Shown here: one piece after another, positions 1-33,169 of the stretch
How positions within the stretch are numbered: position 1 is the first letter of the stretch
How the letters are laid out: the number at the start of each line of letters is the position of its first letter
NCBI GenBank assembly: GCA_030040655.1
Contig: JASHTH010000331.1
Coordinates: 1 to 33,260 of the forward strand
Reading direction: 5' to 3'
DNA from: Acidobacteriaceae bacterium
GTDB lineage: Bacteria > Acidobacteriota > Terriglobia > Terriglobales > Acidobacteriaceae
Length of the DNA stretch: 33,260 nt
Notes under the pieces: generated by a model
Databases searched by the model: none
The model's input: the letters and a program-made list of their open reading frames with translations, nothing else
What the model was told of the DNA's origin: nothing
Program-made: the position numbers and the translations under genes

Positions 1-1
1 C

Positions 2-682
2 TGGGGTGCGCCGCGGATGCATGGAGAGTTAAAGATGCTCGGGTTGGAGATTTCCGAGCGCACAGTTCTGCGCTGGATGCGAAAGGCCCCTCGAGATACC
101 GAGCCGGCAAGACGATGGGCGACGTTCCTCAGCAATTACCGCGATGCGATCGCCGCCATGGACTTCTTCACTGTGCCGACGCTCACTCTTGGCGTCCTGT
201 ATTGTATTTTCGTGATCGCTCATCATCGGCGTCGCATTCTTCACGGCAACGTCACTCGGTATCCAAGCAGCGCATGGGTATCTCAGCAGCTGCGGGATGC
301 CTTTCCTTACGACTCCGCGCCAAAGTTTCTCATCCTCGATCGCGAGCACGCGTTCCATGATGGAGTTTTGGAGACGGCGAAGAGTTTGGGCATCACCCTG
401 GTTCGAATCGCGGTTCGAAGCCCCTGGCAGAACGGAGTTGCCGAGCGATTCGTCGCCAGCTGCCGCCGCGACCTGATCGATCATGTGATCGTGGTGAACA
501 AACCCCATCTGAAGCGGCTGATGAACGAATATGTGAGCTACTACCATGAAGACCGGACCCACCTCGGGCTCGGCAAAGAGACGCCCACTGGCCGGAAGGC
601 GAGGAACGTCCGTACTGCCGGTACAGTCATCTCCATGGCCAGGCTCGGCGGCTTGCACCATCGTTACGATCTCGCAGCCTGA
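2..682 (+). CDS. Integrase core-domain (DDE, rve) transposase, 5'-truncated by the window edge
   Basis: The frame stays open to the window edge (WGAPRMHGELKML...). RSPWQNGVAERF and DRTHLGLGKETP motifs are typical of rve transposases. Colinear homologue at 30916..31962. Confidence 0.85.
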   Translation, partial: WGAPRMHGELKMLGLEISERTVLRWMRKAPRDTEPARRWATFLSNYRDAIAAMDFFTVPTLTLGVLYCIFVIAHHRRRILHGNVTRYPSSAWVSQQLRDAFPYDSAPKFLILDREHAFHDGVLETAKSLGITLVRIAVRSPWQNGVAERFVASCRRDLIDHVIVVNKPHLKRLMNEYVSYYHEDRTHLGLGKETPTGRKARNVRTAGTVISMARLGGLHHRYDLAA

Positions 683-1031
683 AGAATCAACTCAGCCACA
701 GTCTGAAGAATCTCGAAATAACTCGATCACGTGTGCCTGCGTCTTTGAAGACGCGCGAATTCCAATTCCCCATCACCCAGACTCGCAGACTCGCACTCTC
801 TTGCCGAGAAAGGTCGCTCGGCAGTGACGGCGTATGATACGGCCCGCAGAGTCGTTTGAACGATCAGGAATCGATCCGGATTGAATTTTGGCGAGGCACA
901 GCTACAAAATCGACACCGTTCAAATCGGTGAATCCTGCCTCGAGGCAGCTTATTCCCGCCGCACATGCGGAATGCATCGACGCCTCATCATTCCCAGTCC
1001 TGAGACTTATCGGCTGGGCTCCTGCTTCGCC

Positions 1032-29435: not shown

Positions 29436-30764
29436 ATGAAACAAAGCAGGTCGCACAATAGAGTGCTCTTTCGCCAACTCGCTCCCGTGTTCCTTTCTTG
29501 CGCATTCGCTTTCGCGCAGGACACGGCCATGTTTCGAGGCGATCTTGGTCACTCGGGTATCTATGAGGGAGCGGGAGTGCCCAAACTCAACGGAGTCAAG
29601 TGGACCTTCCACACTCACGGCGAAGTCATCTCATCACCCGCCATCGTCGACGGCGTCGTCTATATTGGCAGCAACGACGGCAATCTTTACGCTATAGACC
29701 AGCAAACCGGCTCCCAGAAATGGAGCTTCTCCACCGAAGCCCGCATCACCTCATCGCCCGCCGTCGCCAATGGCCTAGTCTATTTCAGCAGCTACGATGG
29801 AAACTTCTACGCAGTTGAAACTACATCAGGAAGGCTGCGATGGAAGTTTCGCAACGCGGGCGAGCGCCGCTACGCCGCAACGCATCTGCACGGCTCCCTT
29901 CCTGCGGGCGAAACAATGCCCGACCCTTTCGACATCTATCTCTCCTCGCCCGCGGTCTGGAATGGCGCCATCTACTTCGGCAGTGGCGACGGCAATATTT
30001 ATTCGCTCGATGCCGCTGCCGGTTCGCTCAGGTGGAAGTTCCGGACCGGCGATGTTGTGCACGCCTCGCCCGCCATTGTCGATGGCAAGCTCTACATCGG
30101 CAGTTGGGATAGCTATTTCTACGCGCTCGATGCTGGCACTGGAAAAGAGCTTTGGCGATTCAAAACCGGGGAAGACGCCGACATCCATAATCAGGTCGGC
30201 ATCCAGTCTTCCGCCACAGTGGCAAACGGTCTGGTCTATTTCGGCTGCCGCGATTCGAATTTCTACGCTCTGGATGCGACGACGGGTACAGAACGATGGT
30301 TCTTTAACAACAAGGGCTCGTGGGTCATTACCTCACCCGTGGTGCAGGCGGGCAAGGTCTACTTTGCGACATCGGACTCGGCGATCCTCCGCATACTCGA
30401 CGCCCAGACCGGCGTACCCACTGGCTCAATCCAGTTCCACTGGCCTTTCTTTGCATCGCCCTCAATTGCAGGCAATACGCTCTATCTCGGCGGCCAAGAT
30501 GGAAAACTCGTTGCGATCGATCTCGCTTCGGACAAACCCATATGGGTCTTTCAGTCGGAGGGCTCCCGCCACAGTCTGGCCGCAATCTCTAAGCCCGACG
30601 GTAGTCCCAACTACGAAGCCGCCTTCACTTCCAACTTCTACGATGACTTGCTGGTCGGTGTCAGCAAAGTCCACGCCGTAGGCATGATCCTGTCGTCGCC
30701 CGTGGTCTCGGGCAATGTTGTCTACATAGGAAGCTCCGACGGCAGCCTCTACGCCCTTGAATAG
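29436..30764 (+). CDS. PQQ-binding-like beta-propeller (BamB/WD40-like) repeat protein, exported
   Basis: Regular repeats VDGVVYIGSNDGNLYAIDQQTGSQKWSF, ANGLVYFSSYDGNFYAVETTSGRLRWKF, WNGAIYFGSGDGNIYSLDAAAGSLRWKF. ORF begins 29385. Confidence 0.92.
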   Translation: MKQSRSHNRVLFRQLAPVFLSCAFAFAQDTAMFRGDLGHSGIYEGAGVPKLNGVKWTFHTHGEVISSPAIVDGVVYIGSNDGNLYAIDQQTGSQKWSFSTEARITSSPAVANGLVYFSSYDGNFYAVETTSGRLRWKFRNAGERRYAATHLHGSLPAGETMPDPFDIYLSSPAVWNGAIYFGSGDGNIYSLDAAAGSLRWKFRTGDVVHASPAIVDGKLYIGSWDSYFYALDAGTGKELWRFKTGEDADIHNQVGIQSSATVANGLVYFGCRDSNFYALDATTGTERWFFNNKGSWVITSPVVQAGKVYFATSDSAILRILDAQTGVPTGSIQFHWPFFASPSIAGNTLYLGGQDGKLVAIDLASDKPIWVFQSEGSRHSLAAISKPDGSPNYEAAFTSNFYDDLLVGVSKVHAVGMILSSPVVSGNVVYIGSSDGSLYALE

Positions 30765-30915
30765 GCGAAACTCTCTGCGGGCTTTTGTCTTGGAATTCGC
30801 AGGCCGCCTCATGCTCGGCATCATCCTGTGGCTCGCCAAAATAACGATTCTGCCGTCGAATCAGGCAAATGCGTTGTTTTACGCATCCGGTCAGTCGGCG
30901 TGTCAAACTGGCCGT

Positions 30916-31962
30916 ATGATACGCCTGCTGGGACTCATGGTTGCTCTAATCGCGCAATTCCACCGGTCTCGACGCGACCTGCTTTTGGAAAACTTGGCGC
31001 TGCGGCAGCAACTCGCCGTTTTGAAACGGCGGCATCCGCAACCGCGATTCGTAGCTTCTGATCGATTGTTCTGGGTGGTTTTGTGTCGACTCTGGCGAGG
31101 ATGGAAGGACGTACTGATTCTCGTCCAGCCGGAAACAGTTGTCCGATGGCACCGGGCGGGATTCAAAGCGTACTGGGCCTGGCTCTCGCGCCGTCGAGCT
31201 CGGGCGGGAAGGAAGCGAGTCAGCAAAGAACTGCGCGAACTCATTTTCCGCATGGTGGTTGAGAACCCGACCTGGGGCGCGCCGCGCATCCATGGAGAAC
31301 TGAAGATGCTTGGCTTCGATGTTGCCGAGAGAACCGTACTGCGCTGGATGCGCAAGGCCCCTCGAAGTCCCGAGCCGGCAAAGCAGTGGATGGCGTTTCT
31401 GACCAATCACCGCGAAGCCATCGCAGCGATGGATTTCTTCACCGTGCCCACGATCACTTTCAGCGTTCTCTATTGTTTCTTCGTCATTGCGCATGCCCGG
31501 CGACGTATTCTCCACTGTAATGTGACGAGGCATCCGAACAGCCCTTGGGTGGTTCAGCAGTTGCGCGAGGCCTTCCCCTTCGACCTGGCTCCGAAGTACC
31601 TGATCTTTGATCGTGCTGCAAACTTCAATCGGGAAGTCGTCGATACCGTGAGCAGCTTCGGCATTCAGCCCAAGCGTACCAGCTTTCGAAGCCCGTGGCA
31701 GAACGGCGTCGCTGAGCGCTGGATCGGCAACTTCCGCAGGGATCTGCTCGACCATGTGATCGTTCTCAACGAACGGCATCTAAAACGCCTAACAAACGAG
31801 TACATCCGTTACTACCATAACGATCGAACCCATCTGGCGCTGGCGAAGGGAACACCGGCGGGTCGCAAAGCAGCGAGCAAATCTGGCGTCGAGGTCGGGG
31901 CGAGGATTATAGCGATGCCAAAGCTCGGCGGTCTGCATCATCGCTACGAATGGGCCGCCTGA
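30916..31962 (+). CDS. Integrase core-domain (DDE) transposase, apparently intact
   Basis: ENLALRQQLAVLKRRHPQPR N-terminus, IHGELKMLGFDVAERTVLRWMRKAP, AMDFFTVPT, RSPWQNGVAERWIGNFRRDLLDHVIV. ORF extends to 30757. Confidence 0.92.
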   Translation: MIRLLGLMVALIAQFHRSRRDLLLENLALRQQLAVLKRRHPQPRFVASDRLFWVVLCRLWRGWKDVLILVQPETVVRWHRAGFKAYWAWLSRRRARAGRKRVSKELRELIFRMVVENPTWGAPRIHGELKMLGFDVAERTVLRWMRKAPRSPEPAKQWMAFLTNHREAIAAMDFFTVPTITFSVLYCFFVIAHARRRILHCNVTRHPNSPWVVQQLREAFPFDLAPKYLIFDRAANFNREVVDTVSSFGIQPKRTSFRSPWQNGVAERWIGNFRRDLLDHVIVLNERHLKRLTNEYIRYYHNDRTHLALAKGTPAGRKAASKSGVEVGARIIAMPKLGGLHHRYEWAA

Positions 31963-32214
31963 GTCACTGCTTTGAAGATCTCTCTTCAGCGTTGAGGATG
32001 AACTGCGGGAGAGGTATGCCCGCTGTTCTTTCCTTCGCCCAGTGCGGTGTGCCTTGATGAGTTCCCACCGTCTAATGGTCTACGTCAACCCAGCCGAAAA
32101 TCTTCTGCGAGACTGTCCGCGTGTCAGACACGCAGGTCCATTTTGCACCCGGATGGAATTTTGGCGGAGGACAGGACGACTTGTCACGCGAGACGGCCAG
32201 CAAACTCTCTTCGA

Positions 32215-32440
32215 GCCGATTGGCCTGGGACTGCACGCTGTCCACCAAAACGCACCAGACCTCACGCCCGTCCAAGCGGCGCCGCTCAAAGACGTGGCGT
32301 GGCGGAGGATTATTGCGGCCATCTCCCGGATAGGTAGGCGGAAAGATCTTGTCCCCCTTGCCTCCCACAGGCTGAAGACGTTGGCGGCGGCGAATAGCAG
32401 CGTGCTTGGAAACATACTCAGAGAGCGTGGCAGCGTCCAT
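32215..32440 (-). pseudogene. csb1: N-terminal fragment of type I-G (formerly I-U) CRISPR-associated Csb1/Cas7 (GSU0053 family)
   Basis: MDAATLSEYVSKHAAIRRRQRLQPVGGKGDKIFPPTYPGDG...RHVFERRRLDGREVWCVLVDSVQSQANRLEESLL. The LQPxGGxGDKxFPPTY and DSVQSQANRxEE blocks are recognised as Csb1-like. Similarity stops soon after; the ORF ends at 32072. Confidence 0.65.
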
Positions 32441-32946
32441 GATCCCCTTCCATTTTGCTCTTTACAGAATTTGGCGTTGACCCGACTGCTATCTCGCCTC
32501 GATTCGGTGTCTGAAATCATAAAGCAAATCTCTCTGCTGTTTGGCCCTCGTAAGCCATCGACGACCACCAGGTGCGCGCCCGGCGTGAAGCGGAGTCAGA
32601 CCGGGATTTGGAGCAACTTCTTCTCCCATCTGGTCTCGCGTTGCCGTCCGTCCAAGGAACTCGGTCGATGGGACCTCGGCACACTAATTAAAACGAAATC
32701 TGAGCAGGAATTCCGTTCGTTCCGTCAGCGGAACGGCGATACACGTCGCAGAGCGCACCATCTGGTGGGAGGGCTGCGGTGTTGGCTTTCGGCAACAAGC
32801 TCGACTGGGACTTCGGCCAGACTTGGCGGAAGGAAACGCAGCGAGAATAACTCGATACGAAGCGCGTGTGGCGATCACAGCTACAATTTCGACTACAGCC
32901 CAAATACATGGCTGGCTCAAATTTGCTGTAAACTATTGAAAATAAA

Positions 32947-33023
<77 letters not shown>

Positions 33024-33169
33024 AATCTGGATTGTCGAAGCGCATCACTTGAGGCCGGCCTGGCGGCAATGGCCATATCCTGGCGCTTGATTCAGTTTAG
33101 CAGAGAATGCCGTGCGTGATTCGAACCGATAGTGGGTCAGTTTGGATTTGCACAGAGACGGGAAGAGGG

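Follow-up and report, generated by a model that had tools for sequence, protein, structure and literature searches.

The window analysed here, a 33,260-nt stretch of DNA from an Acidobacteriaceae bacterium, carries on its minus strand the 5′ part of a csb1 (cas7g) gene, which breaks off at the end of an insertion sequence (IS). It is highly probable (about 0.9) that this stump is what remains of a decayed type I-G CRISPR-Cas operon whose other parts were lost through the IS and a deletion. An earlier note on the same DNA had proposed the residue of a lost CRISPR-Cas locus, and this proposal was supported, with csb1 truncated and no cas partners detected in the genome. Beyond that note, the present analysis established that the IS itself is the breakpoint, that its other flank lacks the remainder of csb1, and that csb1 heads intact operons. 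The evidence supports an ordinary CRISPR-locus relic that is recent and probably non-functional. The locus thereby provides a clean example of type I-G loss, with a breakpoint at an IS end and a truncation that looks recent, and it adds one data point on the gain and loss of type I-G systems in this group, in which the same-genus genomes searched were without csb1.

Identity and extent of the csb1 fragment

The minus-strand open reading frame (ORF) 32440–32072 encodes 122 amino acids, the first 87–89 of which match Csb1/Cas7g (TIGR02570, PF09617), described as the backbone subunit of the type I-G effector in Thioalkalivibrio sulfidiphilus (PMC9638904). The profile PF09617 (Cas_GSU0053) matched ORF residues 18–89 with an E value of 9.7e-18 and 65.1 bits, which passed the cut-off of 25. 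TIGR02570 matched residues 14–86 (E 2.3e-5) with 24.3 bits and did not reach its cut-off of 38, because the fragment covers just one third of that model (66 of 178 model positions). The similarity to both profiles is far beyond chance, and no unrelated family gave a better match, which confirmed the earlier assignment to a truncated type I-G csb1 (cas7). The two Csb1-like peptide blocks on which that assignment had been based, LQPVGGKGDKIFPPTYPG and VDSVQSQANRLEE, were both found on the minus strand within ORF 32072–32440.

The 5′ part of csb1/cas7g occupies 32174–32440 on the minus strand (3′ limit about 32174–32178), as delimited by PF09617 and by homology to intact Csb1. The extent given previously, 32215–32440, was therefore right at the start and too short at the other end. 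The ATG at 32440 is intact and directly preceded by the Shine-Dalgarno-like GGAAGGGG, and the fragment is collinear with full-length relatives from the start codon on. It comprises the start codon and 87–89 codons, about 21% of the gene; roughly 80% of the protein is missing, and the fragment falls short of full length (about 400 amino acids), intact relatives having mostly about 400–430. The fragment is a genuine N-terminus of Csb1, truncated. Since csb1 is cut short by the right terminal repeat of the IS, its frame continues for 33–35 foreign codons into the right end of the element (32072–32173, minus strand, from the ORF list) before reaching a stop. With about one fifth of Csb1 left and no partner subunits found, the product would be unable to form the Cas7 effector backbone, and the stump should not receive a CRISPR-Cas system annotation.

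The insertion sequence, its junction with csb1, and the presumably lost operon

The adjoining IS is an IS3/IS481-like element of 1347 bp on the plus strand (30827–32173), with a DDE transposase between imperfect terminal inverted repeats and with defined ends. The inverted-repeat pair lies at 30821–30842 and 32158–32179, on either side of the transposase ORF, and the left boundary was placed at 30825–30827 from divergent copies in the bacterium's own genome and in genome G273. The transposase ORF (30757–31962, plus strand) carries rve_3 (Pfam, E 1.6e-10) and HTH_21 domains, and its actual start codon is probably ATG 30918, which lies within the element. A single transposase ORF, TGT...ACA ends, and imperfect terminal inverted repeats are shared with IS of the IS3/IS481 type; unlike these, the present copy scored below both NCBIfam family cut-offs (97 bits for IS3 and 88 bits for IS481) and has no target-site duplication, the flanks CATCATCC (left) and GGACGACT (right) being without a common direct repeat.

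The junction lies at 32173/32174, where csb1 meets the right terminal repeat of the element, and the DNA homology to Granulicella csb1 spans about 32178–32441, from the ATG to a few bases before the IS end. The IS is the breakpoint of csb1. The earlier note had placed the break after 75–90 amino acids, about 250–300 bp from the transposase; the first figure agrees with the 87–89 residues found, whereas the second has to be replaced by a break at the IS end itself, the 210 bp between transposase and csb1 being the 3′ non-coding end of the element. The C-terminal remainder of csb1 was not found across the IS on the other flank, in a search of the window and the assembled genome. The left flank is a 62-bp stretch following a PQQ-repeat gene (stop at 30764), and, including the gap to that gene, it showed no csb1 or cas similarity.

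The missing target duplication and the absence of the csb1 remainder beyond the IS can be explained if the element first inserted and a deletion then ran outward from it. The site would have held a csb1-csb2-cas3g operon of horizontally exchanged type, and an IS3/IS481-like element would have interrupted csb1 beyond roughly codon 89. Proceeding outward from this element, the deletion would then have taken the remainder of csb1 and probably everything downstream, leaving at most a 122-aa chimera of 87–89 Csb1 residues and an IS-encoded tail. Because csb1 is the first gene of intact operons, the lost side is the one where the remaining operon would sit.

As claimed before, the window holds no other cas gene and no CRISPR array, and no similarity to the csb1 C-terminus, csb2, or cas3 was detected in it. 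The genome-wide check for partners and type I-G arrays that had been recommended was carried out on the genome's own assembly, whose completeness (74.4%, in 894 contigs) bounds every absence result. In the assembled genome there is no second csb1 and no cas1, the same cas1 search being positive in 9 of 14 controls. The best Cas3g match in this assembly reached 37.5 bits, in the range of generic helicases, compared with 474–741 bits in four relatives that carry csb1. No csb2 was found in the assembly, a weak negative since the search gave no match in any control genome, and the 3′ handle GCTTCAATGAGGCC of the repeats in I-G relatives gave four scattered one-mismatch matches without a cluster. 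The features of a type I-G system, namely adjacent csb2/cas3g, a repeat array, and the adaptation gene cas1, were thus not found.

The 74%-complete assembly may have missed partner genes. In particular, IS-mediated recombination or inversion could have parted the 5′ end of csb1 from an operon that was not lost and whose rest sits in the unassembled 25%, in keeping with the fragmented assembly and with a breakpoint at an IS end. Together with its array, however, a complete I-G operon would extend over many kilobases, and the searches for csb1, cas1, cas3g, and repeats were all negative, which makes such a split improbable.

The right boundary of the IS at 32173 was fixed by a 91-bp copy in another contig of the same genome (C180, 10554–10645), which is 99% identical and ends exactly there. 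With these 91 bp occurring twice in the assembly, the junction could have been an assembly chimera formed at the repeat, the real csb1 being intact or elsewhere. However, an indel distinguishes the two copies, the csb1 homology ends no more than about 5 bp from the biological end of the IS, and the 3′ part of csb1 is on no contig, so that a chimera appears very improbable.

Relatives of the fragment and age of the truncation

Across 84,980 species genomes, the search yielded 312 confirmed relatives. The closest is the intact Csb1 of a Granulicella metagenome-assembled genome (MAG), 79% identical over residues 1–87, and alphaproteobacterial MAGs follow at 75–80% identity, so that csb1 of this type moves across phyla. 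The stump thus resembles type I-G Csb1/Cas7g throughout its N-terminal part, including both peptide blocks, and differs from it in what is missing, in the run of its frame into the IS end, and in the lack of detected effector partners. The order csb1-csb2-cas3g, with csb1 first, was found in loci L018, L021, L059, and L061 (the cas3g of genome G146 being among those scored). Plasmid relatives are annotated Csb1/Cas7u genes with less than 60% identity, and the closest intact Csb1 had no solved-structure match by sequence.

Among 149 genomes searched, csb1 matches occurred in ten: the bacterium's own and nine belonging to its order or class. The same-genus relatives in this set had no csb1, and no sister genome with an intact locus was found. 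The comparison with sister strains proposed earlier consequently revealed no intact system in the genus, the ancestral locus is not directly visible, and we infer the former operon from distant relatives. A similar case is L113 in Roseomonas genomospecies 6, also an apparent deleted I-G locus, where about 140 bp separate csb1 residues 25–178 from cas3 pieces and csb2 was not found. There the csb1 part stands beside cas3 remnants, whereas here it stands beside an IS with no other cas sequence left. A recurrent short form of Csb1 was considered and rejected, the short-looking L089 being a frameshift with the rest of its operon intact. Separately, a 16.8-kb IMG/VR contig (L139, 4887–6218) contains an apparently full-length csb1 with a 444-aa open frame, and the open frames downstream of it resemble csb2 and cas3 on visual inspection; the contig may be bacterial and have been classified as viral.

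In 24 alignment columns, conservation among 78 relatives reaches 95% or more, and the fragment deviates in none of them. Comparison with the closest relative gave a dN of 0.14 and a dS of 2.3, with 16, 6, and 49 differences at the first, second, and third codon positions. The retention of conserved columns together with these rates points to a recent truncation, and the csb1 fragment appears, from its substitution pattern, to have been under purifying selection until recently; a single truncated copy cannot show selection after the truncation. The notion of solo Cas-like inhibitors is not new, and the open frame, the intact start codon and ribosome-binding site, and the fully kept conserved residues would suit a retained and expressed chromosomal 122-aa Csb1-IS fusion that inhibits type I-G systems arriving on mobile elements, for example by poisoning Cas7 filament assembly. 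Such a role is hardly credible, given that the site is an ordinary chromosomal stretch, neither phage nor plasmid, that phage records contain no relative, that no second truncated copy with this break was found, and that a recent truncation accounts for the conservation.

Upstream stretch and tRNA-Pro

The region upstream of csb1 (32441–32946) contains no recognisable cas gene and showed no similarity to csb1 loci, either as DNA or in six-frame translation. No trace of further cas genes was found from csb1 to the tRNA, the best six-frame match having an E value of 0.06. A tRNA-Pro (CGG) was identified at 32947–33023 on the minus strand (ARAGORN; Rfam RF00005), so that both neighbours named earlier, the IS and a tRNA, were correct.

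The search of the genome for an att-type duplicate of the tRNA-Pro 3′ end, the mark of a tRNA-anchored island, found just a second full tRNA-Pro (CGG) on contig C181. With its flanks, window 32869–33128 aligns to C181 62–323 (L053) with 91% identity over 264 bp, and the two copies are nearly identical across the tRNA and its 5′ side. The C181 copy adjoins a gene resembling acyl-CoA dehydrogenase; sister genome G014 also has a homologue of this gene, about 2 kb away from tRNA-Pro. Segmental duplication could account for the copy in the window, or it could represent a strain variant. Many same-genus genomes, as in L054 (G004) and L057 (G032), carry a repeat of some 48–53 bp from the 3′ terminus of tRNA-Pro (CGG) (window 32945–32995) without the remaining tRNA. 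Attachment sites of integrative elements would show such a pattern; no integrase was identified. At its other end, the contig starts within a related IS (window 1–912, rve_3 transposase 2–682), and GAATTTTGGCGAGGCACAGCTACAAAATCG (window 883–912) occurs again near the start of C181.
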